This document shows, one piece after another, positions 12,824-28,800 of a DNA stretch of 49,336 nt. Every line of letters begins with the position of its first letter. Positions within the stretch are counted from its first letter, which is position 1. The notes under the pieces are model-generated. The model was not told the origin of the DNA and searched no databases. It was given only the letters and a program-made list of their open reading frames with translations. The DNA is taken from assembly GCA_000310025.1 (NCBI GenBank), contig FN649733.1:2495491-2544826 (forward strand), written 5' to 3'. This DNA is from Ectocarpus siliculosus (Eukaryota > Sar > Phaeophyceae > Ectocarpales > Ectocarpaceae). The translations under genes and the position numbers were made by a program.

Positions 12824-15800
12824 TCACGACGACGACCTTAGTGGCGGCGTCGGCCCTACCGACGACGGAAAGATTCTCTCCAAGGTGGATGTCGAACGCC
12901 TGCGGTGGGGCGATGACCCTGCGCTGCCACAGGAGCTGTCGTTACTCTCGTACGCGTTTCGTGGTGTTGTCGGGCCCCATTTCGCCGCTACCGATACCGC
13001 TGCTCCTGCTTCCTCTGCCGTCGTCGTTGTCGCCCCGCTACGGCTGGACAGGTCCAACCCGTCAGATACCTTGGCGCTTGATCCTTCAACGCCCCGAAGC
13101 CCAACGCCTGGTCTAATCCTCGCTTCTGATGCTCTTTCCTTTTCTTCCCCCCCACCCGCCACGCCCTCCTCCAGTGCCCTGTATACGTTGTTTGTCCCTG
13201 TTCGCGCCCCGCTTGAAGCGATCAAATCTACACCTACTGCAGCCATTGCCGCACGCTGCCGCGTGTTGTTATCTTGGTATATTCTTTCGTCTCCGCCATC
13301 GCCATCTCCGCAGCTGCCATCGGCGCCGGCTTCGCTTGGAGTGAGTTTTCCACCGCCTTGGGGCAAGTTCACGGCGTTCACCATGCTCGAACTATACGCA
13401 TTGACGTTAACAGGCAGCGCTGGTGGTGGCGGTGGAGGGGGGGTTGCCTGGGTTCCCGCCGGACAGGTCGCGAAGTCGAAGCTATTGTCGCCCGCTTTCT
13501 CCCTTGCGACCCACATGGCCTCGTTCCTCTGTTTGTCGCAAAAGGTTTTCGTTTTGGCGAGAGACTTGTTGGGTTGGTCTGTCACTTTGAATGGTAAGTG
13601 GAGAGACCAGGGTGCTGGAATATCGACCGATCAACTACTTAGGACCGCCGATTGTTTGTGGCAAGGGCGAGGAAGAGTGAAGCTTGACGGAATCATAGCG
13701 TGTGACCGCAACACTATGCCCAGCAGACACCAAACATCATTTACTTGTAAACGCGAGGAGAATCGAGATGCTGTAAGTATGTTTTTCCTTCCAAGAAAAG
13801 GGAAACATGCGCGTCGGAAGGACAGCCCGGGAGAGGAGACCTTCTTCGAGAAACCCAGACCAGAGCTTTGCCCGGTAGAGGATATCACGAACTTGTGATG
13901 TATGGGCTCCTGTAGTTCAGTTATCTCTACAATTCGGTGAGGTTGTCCGCACAACAATCAATCACGCATGCCGCGTCCATAGACCTCGCACCTCCTCCGC
14001 AAAACCGGGGCGAGTAGGGAAGGGGCAGATTCCTGCGAAGCTGAACGATGGCAGATTCGCCACGACCAACAGCGTGGCCTCTCACCTTAAGGTTTTTGGT
14101 GCACAAGTCTGCCGCCGGGCAGTCGAGGAACGCGACCCAGCTCTCGAAGAGAGGGTTGACCAGGAAAGAAATGAAATTTTTCTGTGACGAGGCGATGTCG
14201 GTGTTGTGGCGGTCGCAAAGCGGGGACGGCTCCAACCCGAGCGATTTTTCCTCATCCCCCTGTCGTTGTTGTTTGGATACACAATGAAAGCTCTTTAGCC
14301 GACGAAGGCGGGAGCGGTCCGTTTGCGAGGCAAGACAAGAGGTTGACGAACTTTGCGATTTTCTTCGTCAACAACAAAGAGTCGTTTCTTTTTTCAAGCG
14401 CAAGATTATGACTTTGTTCAAGGTTTCTAATAGCCGACAAACGACGAGGAGACATCCATCAGGTGCGGGGATTGGTACAGCACTATTGATTTGGCGCAGA
14501 TTGTTGGTAGATAGAGAAGATCATTCCAGGAGTAAACAGTTTGTGCCAACTCTAAGAGTCCAGTCGGAACTGTCACTAAAGCAGTACTTCTGCCGTACGT
14601 CGAAGCCCTATCGATAGCTACGCCTCCTGTTGGCTGTTCTGGAGCCCGGTGTGACCTGCTGCGCGTGCCGTGGTCGGTGCTTGCAGTGGTGCTTCATGGC
14701 TCTGCGAGTCGGTGCACCATCTACGAGTCAAGCTACTGTAGCAGAGTTGGACGCTGCTTTCGTATCTCACTTGCAAAAAGAATTCTTCGATGACGTCACG
14801 CGTCCAGCGGAGGTGCAGATCCGTCACCCGAGCCGGGTGTGAAATGTCCGCACTCTTGATACAAACCTTGCAAAGAAAAAACAGTATCCAAGCAATCGAA
14901 CACTGTGGTCATACATATACGGGTTCAGCGTTGAGGCCGCCGCGCGAGGTATTTTCGATTCGTGGTGCGAGCAAACATGTTACCCGTCAAATCCCAACTA
15001 CGTAGAGCTTACTTCGACTGAACGATTTCTTTATAATGAAAGAGTGGGAGAGCACGTTCCACCCAAAATCTCAGAAAATCACCCCGCTAACACCTGACGA
15101 AAGTTAAGCTTTCAAACGATGAACTGCGCCGACCGAGCGGCACCATCGGCACCGTCTGTATGGGCACCTTCATGGCGCACGCGTACGTCTTTGATCTCCC
15201 TTCGTTGACGAGAACCCCTTCACGTACATCCGCCAGGTGGCTATTGAACTCCCCGAGGACATCGAAGTGCTCCTTGAGGTCCGTCGCGAGGACCTTTTCC
15301 CGATTCGAGCGGGGACGGCAGTGGAGGGTGAAATCGGGCGGGGGGGGGTCGTCTCCGGGATGTTATTGTTGATATCCACCATTTCGGGGTAAGGAGTGAC
15401 CCAGACTTTCTACCGAAGAAATTGTCGAAAAGGTCAAACGAGAGGTGAAAATATGGCGAGTACTGAGCGCATATTGCCTGCTCATCTTCTCACCATAGAC
15501 ACCATGATGTGCCTTATCTCTTGCGCCGTAGCGGGAGCCAAATCTCGAAAGAAATTGCACTCGTCTTCTCTCAGCAGGAAGAACGCCTGCCGTGATCAAG
15601 AGGCAGCCACAGAGTCAGACAGAAGCACAGAAACACAGGGATGGGCAGGAAGAGAGAAAGAGAGAAAGAGACAACGAGAGAAAGAGAGAAAGAGGGCGTC
15701 AAGAAGGGTTGTGTTTGAACATTATCGAGCACGCTCGGGGGGCTGTACCGAGTTGTGTCCCCGTTGCAAACTAACCCCTAGCGCTTCCAACCATTCTCCA

Positions 15801-16563
15801 TCTGGGTTGCCTGGAGTAAATGAGACCCATCCCTCGTCTAAGTGAATGGAAGAGTGACCAACACGTAATAGAGAGTGTGTAGCGGAGGGAGGCGGGCATG
15901 TGTAGAAGACAAAGAGAACAGCGCAGAAAGACCGTGTCTGGTAGTCCCGACTTGAAAAGCAAGGCAATGTCTCAGAACAAAAGAGTCGAAACGCATATAG
16001 ATCGAAGTACAAAGCTACTTGTCCGGGGTTGTCCCGATCTCCACTCTCACTTGCCCATTCTCTCCCCTCTCTTCCACTGCTACTAGTGAAACTCAAAGAA
16101 CAGAAACGGAAGAAGGTGACAAGACCGCTTCCATCCCCCCCCCCCCTTCAGGTATACCAGCCGTAGGAGAGAGGAAGAGGAGGATAGACACACATGTCCA
16201 TGTGGCAAATCGGAGGAGAGTAGACCCCACATAGTTGGGGAGTGTGAGTTGTACAGGAAGGAAAGAGAGGATCTCGAGGAGGAAATGAGACAGAGAGGGT
16301 GTGACATGGACAAGTTTGGTAAATTAGACAACAGCGAAAAAACGATCGCGATAATTGGGGATAGATGGTGGGCACAAGAGGCCCTAGAGGACGGGGATAA
16401 GATGTGCAAGAAATTTTTATGGAGTTTGTGGCAGAAACGTAAAGAGCTCCCAAATGTTGGTGGTGTCTCGAGTAGGGGTAGGAACGGTGCTCCGTCTCGA
16501 AAGGGACGCGTGGTCAATGGTCAAATGACTACGGCAAGCAACAAATGAGTACGCCCCCCCCCC

Positions 16564-16631
<68 letters not shown>

Positions 16632-19600
16632 ACACGACCGCGCAAGAAATTTGAACATTGTTGGGCGCCCCACCTCAGACAGATGGTAGTTTTCGAGAAC
16701 GCTGACATCGTTGTACGTGATGGCCAGCTTATGCCCTATCCGGGTGAGGAAAGCATTGCTCCTCCCCGGGTGCTTGAAGTCGTGAATTAGCGAGCCTAGA
16801 AGTAGGGCGGCCACCTCCGCGTCCTGGAGGTGCTGCCCCAAGTTGCACACCTGGGGTGGGGTTTGCGCGGCGCTTCTTTACCCATTCTTGAAGCACGAGG
16901 TAATGTGAACAAGCGCATACGTACGAACTGCGACGATGCCTGGATGTTTGTACAACTTGTGCAGGGAAGGGCGAAGTGTCGTACAGCGGTTCCCTCCATG
17001 CTGTGCGGCGGCGAAGGTCACTCTGCATGAAGGGTCTACCTAAATATACTGTATGCAGTGTACGGCATTCAATGCGTACGACCCGGATGGAAAGGAGGTT
17101 GAAGCCGAAACCAGGGTCCAGACACAAAAGTTTTCAAGAGAAGCCCTTCGCGAGTGGGTAGTAGTGGAGAAGGAACTTGTCGAAGCAAAAGGAATTCCGG
17201 AATGTAGCCGAATTTTTTCTAGGTAGTAGCCTGATGAGCTCAATAAGTACTCGGGCATGCCGTCCAGAGGCAACCTTATGACCAGGTGTGGGCCGGAGCA
17301 ATTTTTTCTTCAAAAGTGGGGCTCAACTAAGCGTGCGACGAGGTCGGCATAAGGCACACACTTTGTTGCAGACTTGAGGTTCAGCCACTACTAGGTAGGT
17401 CAAAGAAGATAAAAATCTAACATTAGGCCACGAGAGCTGATGCTTAGACAAGGCAAGCTGGATTGAAGCTCGACACTTTCATGCTCCATAGACCAGGTCT
17501 GATTTCACCCTCTACGGTTTTGGATCGGAGACGGTATGGACAGCTCATGAGACACCAAACAAATCAGACAGCATTCAGAAGCATATTCGCTCTCAGCGAG
17601 TAGACGTGAACCATCTATCAGAATAAGTAGCGTGTTCATTTCTCCGGCTCAGCACGTACCACTAAAAAAAATATAACAAGCAGATTAACATTCCTCCTCA
17701 CACGAAAAACGACAGCACCAACAGCACCCCATGGTTCCCTCAAATCTCATTTCTACTCGCCTCCCTGCGTCCGCTTGGTCACGAAGGGGGGACATCAACA
17801 GGGATGAGAAGAGCATATTGTGTCGACCAAAATTACGGCCAATTGCGCTCCTCAACACGAAAAGCTCACTTTTAGAAAGTAGTGCACAGCCTGAGTGACA
17901 TCGGCCGCGTGTCGTCGGCTGTGGTAAACGTTGGTAACTCCGGCACCCTTCCCTGACCCATAGCCCTGCTCCACCTTGACCATAAAATTGTTGAAGTGAG
18001 GCTGCTCCTCCAACATTCCATTTCGTTCGTCCCCAAGGGGGTGGGGTGGGGGTACCGACGTGGAAACGTACACGTACGTAGAGGAGGGAAGGGGGGAGAA
18101 GATGATAGGGGACGGCGACATGGGGCGACGTGAGAAGTGTGTGGGTGTCCAGTTTTGCCTTTCTGTGGCATGGGGTCGACATTGCAGGACACGGAACGTC
18201 AGCCACTTTTCATCTGAGTTTTTATGTCTACGACATGAGCTGTTTCGTTTGTGATGTAATTATAGCGCAATCGTTCAGGGGGCGTGTTGTGAGGGAGTGG
18301 CATACCAGCACAGATGACGAAGGTGTACTGTAGTTGGCTTTAAAATCAAGCGGAAGGTACACGCAACAAAAGCCGCGGTTCGTGGCGACGTGACTGCAAC
18401 GGCACACGTTGCTCGACGCATATCACGCGAGGAGCATAATACGTACGCGAACCGCGCGACGACGTGTCCACACAGGAATGGGCATGATAGCACGTGTGCC
18501 ACAACTATCGGAAGTAACTGTAACATTCGCACCGTACACAAATATGCCCACGCCGAAGTATTGGTACTGCGGTACCATTCACGAAAGCTTGCCAACCACG
18601 AGCTAGTACCGCTACCGTTGCACGAAAGAAAGATCCATGCGATGGCGCGCTTGCGTGCACGCGTGAACTTATTTTACCTTGCTAAAAGCGAAGCACGAGA
18701 AAAGGTTGTGCTTTACCGCGAACAGGTACCCACTGAGGGTCACCAGCGGATGCCCCTGGGTCACTTCCTCCAGCTCGAATGGGTCGAAGTCCCATTGGTC
18801 CACCTGTCATGGTTCGTCGCGAAGAATATTAGGACACGCGAACCATTATGTCCCAGTACTGCTCATAACAACGGACAATACTGTCTCCATGCCACGATCA
18901 TGCAACAGTTGGTAACCTCGAAAACCCTCTGGCGGCTGTGTGGGTCATGAACACGGTGAGTTTTGAGTAACCCTACTTCCATCGATGACATTTCCGAAGA
19001 TATTGAGAACGGGATGATCAGGATATTCTTGGTATCGTCTCATCTACCGTGGACGCCAGTCTACACCTTCCGGTACATGCTTCACGCATCAGCCGGGGTC
19101 CTATTGGAGGAATTCTCCACCTTTCCTCCTGCCGTGCTTGCCTGCAACTTCTACTTACCGCGAGAAGGGTTCAGTCTGCTCTTCCCTGTTTTGTGTGTAC
19201 TCACGACTACATATTCGGTTTGCGCTTCAAGTTGCGAGTTTCTAGTTTGCTTTATCTCCGGAGAACCCGACCTACATACCTGGGGTCAAGACCGTGAAGG
19301 TAATTTCAAGGATAACCTGCGAAGATATCAAACGACTCCGTGCGCTGTTCTCCGCTAAACCGAACAAGAAACGGTGTGTTTGCCCCCGCCAGAGCGTCAC
19401 ACTTCAGCGCCCAAAAACGCGGGACGATAAAATCTGTTCTCCATCCTCGCGCGTGGGCGCCTTCTATGCGCCCCCAGACCAAGACGTGTTACCTTCGCCA
19501 ACACTGCCCGGACAGCGTTGTCTTGGATCGACCCCATCGTCGGCTTCCCGACCCCACCCCCGCCGAGCGCCATCGCCACGCCGATCATGTGCGAAGCCGT

Positions 19601-22600
19601 CGTCTCTTCGCTCGACGCGGACGCCGAGAGCTGGGACGACAACGGGGGCGACACCCAGAAGCTGGAGGGAGAGATCGCGGGGTCTGCCCCGACGCCGACC
19701 GCGAAGCTGGACCTCCCGCGAGCCCTGTCCTCGTCCTGGCCGTATCTTCACCGGTTGTTAGTTGACGGACCGGCCGAGCACCGGCCAAAGAAGAACGGCA
19801 GTGGACGGGAGGGCAAGTGTGTGTAATATCCAGTGATACTCGTGCTTATCCCCCACGCTTCCCGAGAAGGGGAGCTTGGATCCATTTTTTGTGAGACCGC
19901 CATTGACACCACCAGTACCAATCCGTCCGTTGCAAGGGACGGGAAATTCATTTCCATGCGTGGCGGTGTGTGTGTGCTTGATTTTTCGGCAGTGTTGTCA
20001 CCCTCAAGCCCGTGAAACTGGACACCGCAGAAGTAGACCCCTTGGCAAGCGTAGTACTAGGGGGCTCGTAAGGAGTGGTGCGATTTTTACGGGGGCGTAT
20101 CGGTCTAATATTTACGATAACAATGTCTGGATCTCGGTTCGATGTAGGAGCCCACACGAATACGAGCCCAACACATAGCAGGTTCAGAAGCAGAAACGAA
20201 AATCGTTGGTACACTAGGTTTTCAAACGAGCATGCTCGTGGTGTATACACATTTCTCACTCTTTCCAGTAGGCTTCGTTTCCTCGCTGTAGCGTAGCGTC
20301 CACGTAGATTTGCTTGTGCGCGAGCAGGGACTACCAAGGAAACAAACAACAGACGGGGAGAGGGGCAAGGGGCAACGGGCACAAGGCTTAGCGCAATTGT
20401 TGGCCGTCGGCCTCAGAACACGAGAGGTTCAATACTGCTTACAAAGTAAACAAGCGAAGCTCTCACTGTGGGTCTACCGCGGCGTTCGACATATTTCGCG
20501 CACGTTTAGGGAACCCCGCAAGCATTAAACTTGGGGACCCGCTCGTGCGCAGCAAAGCACCACCTTCCGGGTGAAATATGCTCCGACCCGTTCCACTAGA
20601 GTAAGCTCTCGGGGATAGAGTAGACCTCGCATCCGAACCGGGTAGGCGGGATTTGGAGGCTAGCGTTCGTTTTACCCAATGTAAGCAATAACTCACCCGC
20701 ACGCTCGACGATTTCGTCCCCCATGAATGGACACATTTTCGTGACTCGCAAAATTCGCATCCTGTCCTCACTGCTGTTGAATGAAATAAACGCCCAACGC
20801 ACTTATTCCTAAGACACACAATCCTTCTACTCCACGCATGATCACCACCAAATATCTTGTTGGGCCGGTTATCCGTACGTGAGCTACCGCGAAATATCTG
20901 GTGCGAGGAAACATAGGCACACGAGGTTTCTCACTGCAAATTTATCCTGGACTCTTAACCACGGACAGGGATGAATCTATCTGTGTTTCGTCCTTGAAAA
21001 ACAAAATGGAAGTGCATGCCCTTTCGTCAAGATCTTGAAAAACGGACCGTTGTTGGTCATTCTCACCAGGAGGCGCCGGAGAGTTCTCTTCTCGGCTGCG
21101 GTGAACAATCCAGAAGAATCTCGCACAACGCGATTGACCAGTTGATACAGCTGCACAGCCGGATTGGTAGAGATCTGCTCGCCTCCCCACGGCGAATGGG
21201 CGCGAAAAATAACATAAGTCAAGAACAAAAAACGAAAAATGTGTTTTGGCTGTCTCCCCTTCCGTTGTTGAACAACCAGTCTGGGTTTCCGTCTACCCAA
21301 CAACTCTGTACCCGGTACGAACGACCTTCCACTTACTTGGATCATACGCTGGATGGCACAAATTGTTTCGGATAGGGTGGGAAAACGATCACAGCGCCGA
21401 GCAAACAACGAATCATTACGAAAATCCCAGCAGAGTTACTCTTACGCCCACAAGCAGCCGGCGCCAGTTGTACAGATGTGTCCCAAGTGCTAACGCACAG
21501 GAACATGGGCTGCAGACTGCAACAAGGCGCAGAAGGCTATAATTTCTCTTTCGTCCTGTAACTTTAACATTTGTAGCGAATACACAAAAGGAGGACTTCC
21601 ACCGGGCAAGATGGATCAGACGCCGGGCAACACAACAAATGACCGGGTTTTCAGGGCAACACACAGCAGTGTACACCCGCAGCCTGTGAGGACACATCGT
21701 GGTTGCCGTGCTTATCCGTAGTCTGTGGACTGTCAGCCTCAGAGGCCGGGACGGGGCTCGTCGTTACGACGAAACCCTGGCAGACTGTGGATGACGAACC
21801 TCTTCTTACAGTCCTCCGGCAGCTGGACAAACCCGATTATTTGACACCCCAACCAAACTTTATCGCGACCAAGGTGTTGGCGTGAGGCTTTCGCCGCAGC
21901 ACACCTACCTGTGATTCTGAACGCCCCGACACTAAATGCCCACGCCTTAACGCTGCAATGCGCACGGTCCGCAGAAACAGCACCGCTGAGCCCACCCTCA
22001 CTGACACCGTCAGGCAACCCCCCCCCACGATCACGAACGCGTCCCACAAGTGCACCCTGAAGCGAAGCGAGAAGAAGGCCACGCATGGTCGATTGTCACG
22101 CCCAGCACACATTCACAGGCACAGGCCACACTCAACGCTGAAATTAGTTTGTCAAGCGGCATTGACCTCGCCATTGATACATCTACCGGTACCGGTACAC
22201 TGGGTTGGTTTTGGTATTATGCGCTTTGTCTATCGAGTAGGGATGGCACGTGGTGCCCGTGCCCCCAAGCAAATCATGAAACAATCGCGAAAATGTCTGG
22301 TATACAAGAATATACATAGTCTCCGAGATGCCCTTTGTCTATAAAAAAAGGCTGTTACTGCTGCTACTGAGATTAGGATGTGAAATTTCCCCCCCGAGCC
22401 ATGTCCAGTGACCAGTTGATGGGGGCTTGGCACAGCACAAACAAGACGTAATAACTCACAGGCGTTCGCGCGGCAGGAACAGGAAACGACTACATTTTCA
22501 CTTGGGAGGCGAGCTGGGTATGATATGCTGCTGCCCATGATAAAGCTCAAGGTCATCCAACGTGCGCGCACTAAGACCAAATCTTGTTGCCACCCTCTCA

Positions 22601-25182
22601 TGTAGGCTCTTTGATTAGGTGCTGTTTTGCTCTTGATAACAATTTTTTCTCGGACAACGATATTGCAGACGTCGACACCGTTTCATTTCTCGTTCTTGGG
22701 TGAGATGAATGACACCTGTCTACAGGATACCCACGGTAGTCCGCAACTGTGAACTTCTGCTTGGAATCTACGTGGAGAATAGGGCGAGTCTAGATTTGTG
22801 GCGAGCGAGCGTTGGCCCGTCCGCTGCCTACACAATGATGCCATTTTTCTCGGGCACCGGCACGGTTCCATGGCACGAGTTTGGCGTACAACGTGCATCA
22901 TGTCATTACTTCATTCATGCTGACATTGCCTTGGTGCTGACATATCAAACTGAGCGATTTCAACCCACCAATGGGAGAAATACGACGGGCCACACGCGTA
23001 CAGACGTAGCACAAGCTCCAAAGCGGCAGCTGCCGCCAACAACCATTGCGCCACCCAAATCCAGTCGGATTCTTGCCTGCTCTCGAACACATGTGTGTGG
23101 CAACAGAACGAAAAGAGTGCCAGTAAATAGAGCGCACACTCGAGTACCATTCGTGGGACGAGACAGCGGTGACAATTTTCCCGTGATGAATTGGGCAAGT
23201 TTATGTCTGCGTACATTTTGAACGACTCTCAGCGTGGTACAGGACTGGGTTCGACCAGTTTCAACACACCGACGTTGTCTACATGAACATGGGTGATTGG
23301 GATACTCCGTACAACACATCATTGGTTGAACCAGAAGTGCCATCTTCCTCCCGTTTGTACCCCCTCACCATTTTTGCCAACTAGCCGTTCGTAGAACGGC
23401 CAGAAGAAGGGCAACCGTGCTTGCTACTGCTGTGAATCCCAGGAAAAGCGCAGAATCAAGCACATGTTGCATGTATTGCTGTTCGTTGTCTTGTGATCTG
23501 GGTCAAGACATCGGCGACACGCGCGGGGGAATAACAAGGGGTCGGGAACCGGGGTGTTACATACATAAGATGGCAAAATCTTGAACAAAAAGACCTGGAA
23601 ACCTAACTCCCTTTACAAATACCGCTTTTGAGCGGTACGCTGCGCGTTAAGTTGGTTCCTCTGGGCGTGTGTATGCCGGCCAGCAGTTTCGGCTAGCCGT
23701 GGAGCGTAAACCGTGTCGAAGAAGACGCCACTTATTCTTGCGGAGTCTTGCCGATGAAGGGGGTGATGTGCAGCATAATAGACAAGCTGAACATACGGTC
23801 TACAGATGCTAACACACCTCTCTGTGCCAACTACTCTAGTACCGCAAAGGAAAATTGATACGTCGGTGCCAACAGTATTTTCTCTTTTTCTCTCTTTCTC
23901 TCGCTCTATGCTATGAGACAGCTGCCAAAGGTTTGCCGCGCCGCCGAAGGCAATGATGAATGGTGGAAATCGGCATTATTGGCACAGACAGTGCAACCTT
24001 TTCTCACTCAAATGTGTGCACGTGAATGACCTCGCCTCTCTACCATCGCCATGTGCGAACAAGACATGGGAACCGTCATTCTATTAGTCAATTTTGTTGT
24101 GCCAGTCACAATTTATCACAATACCGTAAACTACGGAGTTTCCCCCCCCTAGTCCAGATCCCCCCCCCCCCCATTACCTTTTCGGCCTGGAAGCATGGTT
24201 TCGTTGATTTAGCCCCGGGGTAGATCGTTTTCGACAAAAAAAAAAAACATCCCCCCAGGTTATTTCAATTTCCCCCCGGGGTACCAGTTCCCACGACTTC
24301 CCCCCGGGGGGGGGTGTATTTATTTCCCTTATTTTTTTAGTAGACTTTGTTGCATAGCGGAGCAGTGTGAACGGAGCTGGCGGGTACTCTCTGGAAGGCG
24401 GGCCCTTCCTCTTCTTGGAACAAGGAGGACAGAAACACCCCCCGCTGCTGTCCTCCTTGTTGTCTTCTTTCTCTTCGCCTTCGTTGCTCTTACGTTCCTC
24501 CTTAATCTGCTTGTTGAACTGAACGTTTCGCCACTCTCTGTGTGTGTGGTGTGTGGGCCATCAATATGTTGCACAACCCCCCGGAGGGGGGCTTCCCCCC
24601 GGGTTAGCGTTGCAAAAAAAAAGAAATAAATAACCCCCCGCGGTACGTCAATTTCCCCTCGGGGGGGTTGGTTTCAGAAAAAAAACGATCCCCTCCCCGG
24701 GGGCAAAACTCCGTAGTTTACGGTACACCAAAGCGCACAAGTGATCGCGACAGAATACCCTCGACGGCCAACACGGGACAAAAACAGCGCGACCACAACA
24801 CCGTGGGCGATGAAGTATATTAAGGCTGGAGGGTGAAAGAGTACGATGACCTCTAAGTACCCGCAACACGCGTATCGCACCTCACTCGGGCCGCGCCGGC
24901 TTTCTCCTCTTCTAGAAGCCTGAGCTGATTGGCCAACATCGACAGGCTTCCTCGACGAGCGCGGGCGGCACTGCTCCCCGCGTTTGACCCTGCCATGGGC
25001 ACTCCTGTCTCACCCACATCCACGCAAGATTTATTTCGACCTAAGGTCTTCGGCAGGCCTCTTCTGGGTACTACCTCGCTTGATCTCCGTCTAACTTTTC
25101 CCGTCGGGTCGCGTGCGGTGGGCGTTGTCGGCTTCACCCCTCTGTTCAAGGTCTTCCCGGCCTCGGTGCATGCTGGCTCCAT
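12824..25182 (-). CDS. Voltage-sensor-like membrane domain fused to class I 3',5'-cyclic nucleotide phosphodiesterase
   Basis: Fourteen exons: 25182-24886, 23225-22969, 22056-21909, 21174-21067, 20761-20697, 19745-19493, 18803-18678, 18001-17870, 16850-16674, 15586-15494, 15293-15168, 14866-14771, 14259-14086, 13528-12824. They total 2757 bp in frame (918 residues), with phases matching at every junction. Residues 1-120 are cytosolic-looking and basic (RRRSS, RRGSL). Four hydrophobic helices follow: S1 about 121-142; S2 154-176 (ALELVLRLYACG, then YFSH); S3 186-204 (LWDAFVIV); S4 208-223 (FLRTVRIAALRR). No S5-pore-S6 is seen. A linker (about 235-376) leads to the complete PDE domain: VDQWDFDPFELEEV; YHSRRHAADV (H445, H449); the metal signature HDFKHPGRSNAF (H485, D486, H489); YNDVSVLENYH; VLATD; KSADISHP (D601); EEFFLQ; and the purine-site ASSQKNF (Q652). 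A low-complexity tail of about 230 residues ends the protein. It would hydrolyse cAMP and/or cGMP. The PDE exons are near certain; exons 1 and 5 are the weakest. Confidence 0.88.
16484..16565 (-). repeat. Dispersed G-run-headed repeat, copy 2 (5' fragment)
   Basis: The reverse complement reads as a G run, CGTACTCAT, then TTGCCGTAGTCATTTGACC and GACGGAGCACC. This matches the first about 75 bp of the family consensus with several substitutions. It lies in a phosphodiesterase intron (15587-16673), sense to the gene, directly beside the CT microsatellite at 16567. Confidence 0.75.
16567..16630. repeat. (CT)n microsatellite
   Basis: About 32 uninterrupted CT units in a phosphodiesterase intron. 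On the gene's own strand this is GA-rich and lies about 45 bp after the donor site. Confidence 0.95.
24122..24725. mobile_element. MITE-like element with terminal inverted repeats
   Basis: CCGTAAACTACGGAGTTT at 24124-24141 recurs inverted as AAACTCCGTAGTTTACGG at 24706-24723, each flanked by TA, which fits a TA target-site duplication of the Tc1/mariner type. The element is about 600 bp. Its interior holds several C/G homopolymer tracts and A runs, some arranged similarly on both arms (for example GATCGTTTT near each end). A short open frame (24574-24329, minus) has no transposase motif I recognise, so the element looks non-autonomous. It lies in the first intron of the phosphodiesterase gene. 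Confidence 0.75.
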
Positions 25183-25456: not shown

Positions 25457-25804
25457 CCCGATGGATCACCCCGTCGGATGATTCACCGTACACTGGATGG
25501 GCAGACTGTGAACACTACAAGGTGTGCGGGAGGGAGAGAGAGAGGGCAAGGTGGGAGTATGCGGTGTGTCTTGTCGTCGGTGATGACATCATCCCACGAC
25601 GACTACACATAAAACTGACAGTTTCATGCATACGTACGTGGCTTCGGGTACTCGGTTTGTCCAGTTCGCGTGGCCGCCACAAGCGGAGCAGAAGGGAGCT
25701 GGCACAGGGTCCGTAACACACGCGTCCAGAGAAACATGCAGCAAATAAGCTCGGCAGGGAGACTTGCGGCGCCATCGCCCTGTAGACGACACCACCACCA
25801 GCGT
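25183..25804. promoter_or_regulatory. Putative shared promoter region of divergent PDE and MGDG synthase genes
   Basis: The two proposed start codons (25182 minus, 25805 plus) are 622 bp apart in head-to-head orientation, so both promoters and 5' UTRs must share this interval. It contains the CT microsatellite at 25395-25456. I see no clear TATA box. If an unseen 5' exon exists for either gene, the true promoter lies elsewhere. Confidence 0.45.
25395..25456. repeat. (CT)n microsatellite between divergent genes
   Basis: About 30 CT units with one TTT interruption near 25445. It is pyrimidine-rich on the MGDG synthase sense strand and lies about 350 bp before that start codon. Confidence 0.95.
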
Positions 25805-28800
25805 ATGGCCTTCCGCGGACCTCTCTCGCTGCTTTGGCTAGCTCTGTCCGTGGGCACCGGACCGGTCGCCTGTTTCGTGGTTCTTCCAACCTCAACACCC
25901 GTTGCCGCCGCATCGCCTCTACCGAAGATCGTCCTAGGGTCTCAGCAGGGCGGGCGCGGAGCAGCGCGTAGCACCAGCAGCAGCGGGAGCCAGCGACGGT
26001 TGTACGCGTTCACTCGAAGGTCGGAGCAGGAGCGAAGAGCACTAGAACAGGCAACCGACGATGAGCAGGCAGCAGACGCATCATCTGCGCAACAGCAAGT
26101 CGAGGACAGCAGTCCAACTGCTGCTACCGGCAACTCAGCACAACATGCAGTAGCGTCAACCGGAATTCGGAACGCGAGGGCACTCCGAGCGGTGTCCGCG
26201 CTATCCCAAGGGAAAGGGTTTAGGGCCGCGGCCACGGCGCTCAGGGCGTCCGCGACGGGGTTGGATGTTGGGGTGCCGACGGAGGCAACGACGACGACCC
26301 GACCCAAGAAAATATTGATCATCATGAGCGACACCGGGGGAGGGCACAGAGCATCTTCGCAGGCGCTGAACGCGGCTCTCGAGAACCTCTACGGCGACCA
26401 GGTATGCATGCAGCGGCGGGGCGGCGAGGCATGGCAGCTTCTCCGCAGCCTATTCACAGGCGAAGAGGGTTCGAAACGTTTCAGGACGACTTGCGTAGTA
26501 GCGTATAAACGCGTTGCGGCGCAACTTCTACTTGTAAACAACCTCGGATCCATGCCTTGTGTTGCTCTGCTATGCGTATGCAGTCCCTCCCGTGTGTGTG
26601 CATATGGTGTGGTACTACATGCCATCCGAATGCGTAGGACCGGCTGGCTGCGCCGCCGCGAACGCTTGTTCAGGTCCACTCCTTGCTGCTGGAGTTCATG
26701 GCGTCGTTTGGCCTCGGGTGGTGGTTGCCTTGAATAGCTGCGTCAAGCAGCGCTAGCGCCGCCACTGCAGAAGTTGAAGTCTCTACTGTAGACTGCTGTG
26801 TCGGAAAAGGTAGCAGCAGCAGCCACGGCGGCGGTTGAAGGGTGCACAAGATCTCCAAGCTTTAATAGACAACTAGCCTTTGCGTTAATAACCATGGCCA
26901 CCCCCTTGCTTGTGTCGATGATAAACGCAAATGCTATTGTTGGCAATGATCCAACACCGCGTTGGGGACGTTTCTACATGTAAAAGCACCCCGCCCCCCA
27001 AATGCACTCACTTGCCCCAAATCACGTTGTACTCCAGATCCACACAGATATCGTGGACATCTGGACAGAGTACGGCCGGTTCCCCTTCGCCGAAGCCGTG
27101 CGGACGTACCAGTTTTTGGGGAAGCGCCCCTTCCTGTGGAAGCTTTCGTACGACATGGCCCGGTTCCCGCCCACCCGGTGAGTTTTGAGGGAGAGGATGC
27201 TGTCCCGCACTACAGAGAACGAACGAGGTCCGTACAGCATTGCAGAGGTTCCCTGTTTAAGAGATACTTTTTTTAGGGCCGGTTGCCCCGCTTCAGGCCC
27301 GTCAAATCGCTCGGCACAGATGGAATATTCAAGTCGTCTCATTCTCTGAATCGTGCCGGGTGCCCGATGCAAAAAGGCCGGTGGTTTTTCCCTTGGATTT
27401 TTTTTTTTTTTGTGCTTGACCATGGCGGCCTGAAACAAACAGGCTGCTGTATCTACCGCGGCAGCGGTGTACACACGCAAGACGCTCAATCGACCCAGTC
27501 CTATACCCCCCCCACGCTCCCTGTCGTGGTGGATGTTTACATATCTGCTACGCCCTCCCGCAGGCGGTGGGCAGAGGTAATGGCAAACCTGACGTGCCAC
27601 CGGAGCTTCCGAAGCTGCCTGGAGAAGTACGAGCCGGACCTGGTCGTGTCCATGCACCCCCTGTGCCACCACGTGCCCCTGAGGGTGCTAAAGAGAATAC
27701 GGGAGGACACGGGGTGAGCGCCATTTTTGTTTTTATAAGCAGCAGCAGCAGCAGCAGCAGTGGCTCGCGCACGCGGCGGCGGTGGCAACAGCAAATGAAG
27801 TATTCGTGCGTGCGGCACGGCAAATGGTGCTTGCTTGTCGGGCAGAAACGCCTTCTTTTTTTTAGTGATTGAGTAGAATGGCGATTATGCGTGCTCAGTT
27901 TTGTTTTGCACAACGGCGCGACTTGCAGAGCTAGATCTCGCTCCCACGACATTCGCACGAAGCCAACTTCAGCAACAGCCCGGGCTCGTGCCCTCACCCT
28001 TTCCTCACTCCATCCGATGCCCCGCCCTCGACACCTTATTCCTGCTGGCCTACGGCCGCAATTCGATGGTTGTTCGTTCGGCATCGAAACTCTGTCGTCG
28101 GATGGATGCACCGGCTGGGTCGGAATCCCTCTCTGGGTCTTAGGAAGGAGATTCCTTTCGCCACCGTTGTCACCGACCTCGGCTCGGCGCACCCAACGTG
28201 GTTCGACCCAAGGGTGAGAGATGCCGGCTCTTGCGGGCAACTGCTGTGCTGTGGCTGCTGCTTGTTGACGCCGAAACTGACAAACTTTGTTGGCCTTTTG
28301 CCGACTCGTGCACGGTGTATCGTGAATTAGTCACGGCACTTTCATGACAGTAAAACTCGTACAATCCTTGCTTCCTGCTAAAACAATTCTCCGCTTCCTT
28401 TGGTTCATGAAAAACTATGCGTTAGTGGTTGTAGATGAATCTTGCACTGCGGGGGGGCGTATTTGTGACATCTTGGTCTTAGGCATCTGCGGGTGGCGTT
28501 ACTGCCGTAAGCTCAATCCTTGATGTATCTGTAGTCTCTTGGTTGAATTGGTTGTCATCCTCAGCTACTCTTATCTCTTGCGGTACCTGCTGCCGGGCGT
28601 CTGCACTTTTGTCCGATTCAACGGCGGTATACCTCATTGTTGTCTATTTACTTGCATGCTCAAATTCCTCATGGCCATCGTAACCACCGTACGCGCGCGC
28701 GCTCGTGCCGGCCAACTGCGACAGGGAGACCTTACGTACGTACCGAGCGACGTGTTGAGAGAAAGGGCCCGGGCCAGGGGCATCCCGCAGCACAAGCTCA

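Follow-up and report, generated by a model that had tools for sequence, protein, structure and literature searches.

The DNA analysed here (the window) is a stretch of 49,336 nucleotides from the brown alga Ectocarpus siliculosus, corresponding to positions 2495491-2544826 of the source contig FN649733.1. On its minus strand, between window positions 12824 and 25182, lies a gene whose corrected model has 15 exons and encodes a protein of 915 amino acids, in which a membrane part related to voltage-sensor domains (VSDs) precedes a cyclic-nucleotide phosphodiesterase (PDE). An initial annotation of the same DNA had also placed one minus-strand gene over this interval; the single gene stands, whereas its 14 exons and 918 residues are replaced by the present figures on the basis of orthologue alignment.

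The exon chain was first joined by eye and then corrected by alignment to orthologues, and all 14 introns of the corrected model have GT-AG borders. Compared to P0001, a 912-residue protein of Ectocarpus sp. 12 deposited as 'unnamed protein product', the corrected protein shows 93.9% identity over 911 aligned residues, with 99% in the N-terminus, 88.9% in the membrane part, 92.9% in the linker, 98.7% in the PDE and 88.1% in the tail. The uncorrected model was 80% identical to P0001 with 100% of the query covered, and the rise is partly circular because P0001, itself a prediction, guided the correction. Alignment to P0001 removed two exons of the first model, namely 20766-20697 and an S1 exon starting at 23225. 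The latter had been implied by the initial annotation, which listed no exons but set the stretch in which to look for a single transcript at 23225-18678; orthologues place S1 at 23497-23369 and the start of the S2 exon at 23076, and 23225-23077 therefore reads as intron. At 23497-23369 the window codes for an S1 helix with the pattern [VA]LDS...LLLAV.RT, which is common to the orthologues of Ectocarpus, Scytosiphon, Laminaria and Undaria (the last being P0002, its species taken from the label Undpi1).

Exon 1 (24881..25182, minus strand like all that follow) encodes the N-terminal cytosolic region, residues 1-101, with a PKA-like site RRGS (Ser79), the 99% identity to P0001 being measured over residues 1-100. 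The S1 helix (residues 113-138) is carried by exon 2 (23369..23497), which has GT-AG borders and matches P0001, P0003, P0029 and P0002. Orthologue alignment likewise defines exon 3 (22969..23076; S2, residues 149-173, with Glu164), exon 4 (21909..22056; S3, 182-202, with Asp185, and S4, 203-222, with Arg209, Arg212, Arg217 and Arg218), the conserved cytosolic linker in exon 5 (21067..21174) and exon 6 (20260..20330, with SLLAHKQIYVDATLQRGNEAYWKE), and a variable linker in exon 7 (19493..19745). The remaining exons rest on alignment to P0001, supplemented by motifs in exons 9, 10, 13 and 14. The PDE fold starts in exon 8 (18678..18803, VDQWDFDPFELEEV) and continues through exon 9 (17870..18001; His442 and His446 in YHSRRHAADV), exon 10 (16674..16850; His482-Asp483 in HDFKHPG), exon 11 (15494..15586), exon 12 (15168..15293), exon 13 (14771..14866; Asp598 in SADISHP) and exon 14 (14086..14259; the purine-pocket Gln649 in SSQKNF). 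Exon 15 (12824..13528) holds the end of the PDE, a low-complexity C-terminal tail and the stop codon.

By its sequence, the protein is a class I cyclic-nucleotide phosphodiesterase. PDEase_I is matched with an E value of 1.2e-74, and the metal-binding H, H, D, D residues and the general-acid histidine are all present, as is the purine-binding Gln649, in agreement with the complete PDE described in the initial annotation. PDEase_I and Ion_trans are the only domains named in the full-protein Pfam scan (E<=10). Residue 601, in exon 13, is His in each of the 14 family rows in which the motif can be read. PDE4 has its purine-pocket Asn at this position, and with His in its place the preference between cyclic AMP (cAMP) and cyclic GMP (cGMP) may be unusual.

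A fusion shared by several algal lineages

Single gene models spanning both the membrane part and the PDE are found in P0001 and, as a partial model, P0003, while the partial Laminaria protein P0029 covers the membrane part, the linker and the first PDE motif. The same order of modules is seen in P0026 from Chrysoparadoxa australica, in P0027 from Tribonema minus (a model without S3-S4) and in the environmental sequences P0025 and P0028; the P0025 contig, 2,763 bases long, holds all modules within a single frame of 745 residues. The linker pattern PAVQLY...EKK.LR.L..LLAH.QIYVD...RGN..YWKEYG is kept across the VSD-PDE family. In a PDE tree of 27 rows, from which P0005, P0029, P0032 and P0036 were left out, the 14 rows of the family group together with 100/100 support; the tree is midpoint-rooted, its bootstrap is not fully settled, and several of the outside rows are long branches.

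The recurrence of this order in several genera, together with the conserved linker, therefore points to a fusion common to several algal lineages and not to a local accident. Comparison of the predicted proteins indicates that brown algae share the fusion with at least two further lineages of algae, and the assignment of both modules to one gene is well supported. That two neighbouring genes were wrongly joined, or that the gene is a prediction artefact, is accordingly a highly improbable alternative: the first exon chain held wrong exons yet stayed in frame, but the same fusion in the same order occurs in the models of several genera and on a 2.8-kb contig, with a conserved linker between the modules, and the artefact is rejected on the evidence of the orthologues.

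Protein searches, in each of which scoring was confined to the 8000 candidates with the most shared words, returned only four proteins, all known beforehand, for the VSD, the linker and the PDE start alone; with the profile, proteins from outside the brown algae were found as well. In the alga's own assembly (189 Mb, 492 contigs), a membrane-plus-linker query yielded no paralogue at E<=1, all five matches falling inside the window. Other PDE genes are present elsewhere in this assembly, among them two similar ones on contig C17 (L044 and L045), on opposite strands and separated by about 34 kb, upstream of which lie frames that look GAF-like by eye. On C26, most of the stretch fetched ahead of a further PDE gene consists of N. 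Separately, six unnamed relatives (P0030-P0035) begin within S3 and have one S4 arginine each; they would be either 5'-truncated gene models or a lineage that is losing the VSD.

Relationship of the membrane part to voltage sensors

The membrane part is predicted to form four membrane helices, S1-S4. The hydrophobic stretches of the window protein lie at 112-142, 148-175 and 180-216, the last merging S3 and S4, and the structure model of P0001 contains, at low confidence, four helices at 117-138, 148-178, 180-198 and 200-221. This model is good over the PDE and falls below a predicted local distance difference test (pLDDT) value of 50 at residues 703-912. The VIA-align rows of the model lie almost wholly within 341-694, and the absence of any protein family from them carries no evidence.

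Of ten members whose membrane-plus-linker segments were scanned in isolation, seven match Ion_trans at E<0.001, with E values of 1.7e-5 for the window protein, 4.2e-5 for P0001, 4.6e-4 for P0005, 1.7e-6 for P0026, 7.4e-4 for P0025, 7.3e-4 for P0028 and 9.5e-4 for P0027; for P0026, the protein database also gives a precomputed PF00520. The initial annotation had pointed to a Pfam comparison, in which PDEase_I is confirmed and, for the isolated segment of the corrected model, Ion_trans is matched at 24.6 bits, just under the curated cut-off. This value supersedes the 26.1 bits, above the cut-off, that had been obtained with the segment of the first exon model. In the window protein, DUF6297 gives a weaker match (E 0.0037) that overlaps this segment. 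All Ion_trans matches fall within positions 2-112 of the 241 in the profile, that of the window protein ending at 104-105, and the later part of the profile is the pore. No S5-S6 pore module follows S4 in the window protein, where the only other hydrophobic stretch is at 652-670 (1.33), inside the PDE; a channel with a pore is thus ruled out by the lack of any further strong hydrophobic stretch.

A profile built from eight family members matches 105 PDB sequences at E<=10, and the best 60 of the 105 are all channels or sensor proteins by name: calcium and sodium channels, voltage-sensor phosphatases, a hydrogen channel, and entries named 'Ion channel' or 'Ion transport protein', which we take to be an Hv1 chimera and bacterial sodium channels. 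The L-type calcium channel Cav1.2 is matched at 1.3e-10 when its repeats are added up (7e-4 for the best of them alone), Ci-VSP ('voltage-sensor containing phosphatase') at 6.9e-7, 'Ion transport protein' at 2.2e-4, the hydrogen channel Hv1 at 3.9e-4 and TPTE2 at 2.4e-3. The reversed profile gives no PDB match at E<=10. Tribonema P0027, which was outside the set used to build the profile, is matched at 8.7e-20. In loci fetched from the own genome, many of them chosen for Ion_trans, 2,198 open frames were compared with the profile; apart from the window exons, channel frames match best (L032, 5e-5), against 0.92 for the best reversed frame, and 52 forward versus 22 reversed frames are matched at E<=10. 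In L032, the S2 Glu and the S3 Asp align in register with the family. Taken together, these comparisons establish, at the level of sequence, the homology of the membrane part to the voltage-sensor domains of Cav channels, Ci-VSP and Hv1, and bear out the kinship proposed in the initial annotation.

Possible control of the enzyme by voltage

Residue conservation was counted over the eight members that have the region (P0005 lacking S1); P0030-P0035, which start inside S3, P0002 and P0027, in which helices are missing, and P0004 and P0036, which lack the region, were left out. Seven columns are invariant: Glu164, Arg168, Gly173, Tyr176, Trp180, Val188 and Arg209. The three sensor features singled out in the initial annotation all hold up, as the acidic S2 residue in ALELVLRLYACG is the invariant Glu164, the S3 Asp in LWDAFVIV is Asp185, an acid in 8/8 members (Asp in seven, Glu in P0028), and the arginine-bearing S4 FLRTVRIAALRR contains Arg209 and Arg212, the latter kept in 7/8 and replaced by Cys in P0028. 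In addition, P0025, P0026, P0027 and P0028 have Phe at the S2 plug position (F-x-x-E).

Several observations weigh against a working voltage sensor. On the side of detection, the segments of P0002, P0003 and P0029 (3/10) have no Ion_trans match, the curated Pfam cut-off is passed by one isolated segment in ten (P0026), and full-length scans match Ion_trans in 7 of 16 proteins, with none above the cut-off. A PDB search with the VSD as a single sequence gives no significant match, a sodium channel being the best at 0.097, and block pLDDT values over the membrane part of the P0001 model are low, at 48-76. At the residue level, the S4 of the window protein (R209-T-V-R212-I-A-A215-L-R217-R218) is charge-poor, with Arg at 0 and +3 and Ala215 at +6; two arginines are in register in the nearest members, and a run of at least three Arg/Lys at every third position is absent. 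Position 218 (+9) is Arg in the window protein and P0005, Leu in P0001, Lys in P0003 and Gly in P0029. P0028 has the first S4 arginine only, and P0030-P0035 (6/6) keep one and lack that at +3. Three residues before the S2 acid, an aromatic plug is absent from the window protein, which has Ala161, and from P0001, P0003, P0005 and P0029, which also have Ala. Finally, identity to P0001 is lower in the VSD (88.9%) than in the PDE (98.7%). The missing plug, Ala215 and the variable S4 therefore mark the predicted domain as a reduced voltage sensor, and it may be a former one.

Ahead of S1, the motif R-R-x-S is present in all nine members that have an N-terminus, at residues 76-79 (Ser79) in the window model. 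With S1 start points set by eye, its distance to S1 is 34-37 residues in 7/9 members and 51 in P0002; in P0005, whose model lacks S1, it stands 28 residues before S2. The first 100 residues are otherwise diverged, the window protein being 25.6% identical to P0002 and 33.7% to P0005, and shuffled single N-termini contain RRxS in 7-23% of cases. Because the family sequences are related, this conservation is suggestive only. RRxS is a consensus for protein kinase A (PKA) or G (PKG); long forms of PDE4 carry a site of this PKA/PKG consensus. In P0025-P0028, a second RRxS occurs after the linker.

Judged from the predicted proteins, the chances that voltage regulates the enzyme in some way appear evenly balanced, and control of PDE activity by the membrane potential is plausible. 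The protein would be a membrane-bound class I PDE with a poreless S1-S4 VSD as its sensory module and the enzyme at the cytosolic face of the membrane. The weakly charged S4 would move against Glu164 of S2 and Asp185 of S3, and its displacement would be relayed to the PDE via the conserved helical linker, so that the membrane potential tunes the local breakdown of cAMP (or cGMP). About two gating charges in register would give a shallow voltage dependence, and PKA acting on the conserved RRxS before S1 would feed back on the enzyme. A bolder reading, given not quite an even chance, is a natural family of voltage-gated PDEs in brown and related algae, in which a low-charge VSD would directly switch cAMP/cGMP hydrolysis, with PKA feedback at RRxS, as the degrading counterpart of stramenopile VSD-cyclases.

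A serious possibility, though one we would not call likely, is that the domain is a true VSD homologue that no longer senses voltage and serves as a membrane anchor, a dimerisation module or a ligand- or partner-binding module placing the PDE at the membrane. TRP and polycystin channels contain voltage-sensor homologues of this kind. The scarcity of S4 charges, the variable outer arginine, the Ala at the S2 plug position in brown algae, the further decay of S4 in P0028 and P0030-P0035 and the lower identity of the VSD than of the PDE would all fit such a module. However, Glu164, Arg209 and the acid at 185 persist in every member counted and Arg212 in all but one, a charge set of which a plain anchor has no need, and the more distant P0025-P0028 retain F-x-x-E in S2. 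A VSD that itself conducts protons or cations in the manner of an omega pore, aided by the absent S4 charge at +6 and with the PDE attached, is improbable; in its favour are the presence of Hv1 among the profile matches and a report that omega currents can arise where the row of S4 arginines is interrupted (PMC10651576).

Neighbouring features and related architectures

Two features of the window stand apart from the gene product. The intron that separates exon 10 from exon 11 contains a long (GA)n run (about 16560-16640), adjoined by a 142-residue plus-strand frame (16120-16548) that resembles a reverse-transcriptase tail by eye but is unmatched in Pfam at E<=0.1. A divergent neighbouring frame on the plus strand (about 25800-26740) contains IMSDTGGGHRASSQAL, a putative MGDG-synthase-like sequence; the Pfam scan of the piece gave no match at E<=0.1.

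Like the window protein, voltage-sensing phosphatases (Ci-VSP, TPTE2) carry an S1-S4 domain on a cytosolic enzyme. Their enzyme is a PTEN-like phosphatase, whereas that of the window protein is a cyclic-nucleotide PDE, and the full-protein Pfam scan (E<=10) finds no PTEN-like phosphatase domain in it. Ci-VSP is reported to have four S4 arginines (PMC10651576), and the window protein has fewer.

VSD-cyclases, including those of stramenopiles, share with the window protein a voltage-sensor-like domain on a cyclic-nucleotide enzyme, but they synthesise the messenger that the window protein would degrade, and no cyclase domain is found in the latter by the full-protein Pfam scan. Fusions of ion channel and adenylyl cyclase were reportedly described by Weber in 2004 in Plasmodium, Paramecium and Tetrahymena. 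The nearest published kind that we found is a Phytophthora Ion_trans-cyclase protein (PMC12223298). A separate oomycete protein, P0039 of Saprolegnia diclina (1219 amino acids), has PDEase_I at its N-terminus, a guanylate cyclase at its C-terminus and, by eye, hydrophobic stretches between them, which would put synthesis and breakdown of the messenger in one chain; neither the VSD profile of the family (E<=10) nor Ion_trans (E<=1) matches it.

Other membrane modules are also known on PDEs. The catalytic domains of human PDE4, PDE1, PDE7 and PDE8 have no VSD, unlike the window protein. Oomycete bigrams of G-protein-coupled receptor (GPCR) and PDE are stramenopile examples of a PDE with a multi-helix N-terminus (PMC5784254, PMC6033456) and are, according to PMC5784254, restricted to oomycetes; they have a seven-helix GPCR N-terminus, whereas the three to four hydrophobic segments of the window protein are homologous to a VSD. 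Choanoflagellate rhodopsin phosphodiesterases fuse a membrane sensor directly to a PDE (PMC8774190) and sense light via rhodopsin, where the window protein has a VSD instead. In Euplotes, PDEase_I and Ion_trans genes are reported to be always adjacent (PMC8670190).

Among the papers listed by the literature searches, most of which were broader than this exact architecture and covered few subscription papers and no preprints, a VSD-PDE was not found. The phrases voltage-sensing, voltage-sensitive, voltage-dependent and voltage-gated phosphodiesterase are absent from the literature covered, as is the word phosphodiesterase from the reviews on voltage-controlled enzymes and voltage sensors that were searched. 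VSD-phosphatases and VSD-cyclases are already known, and the conserved VSD-PDE architecture is, as far as these searches show, undescribed; voltage-sensor front ends are recorded there on phosphatases and, by architecture, on some cyclases. Brown-algal gametes have been reported to use cAMP in pheromone-dependent phototaxis, to go by a title cited in PMC7935092. Even if voltage-insensitive, the protein would represent a conserved architecture, and it might supply a natural component for voltage-to-cAMP tools. If the voltage-gated reading is true, a VSD on a PDE would let the electrical state of the cell control cAMP or cGMP without ion flux, in a complex multicellular lineage.
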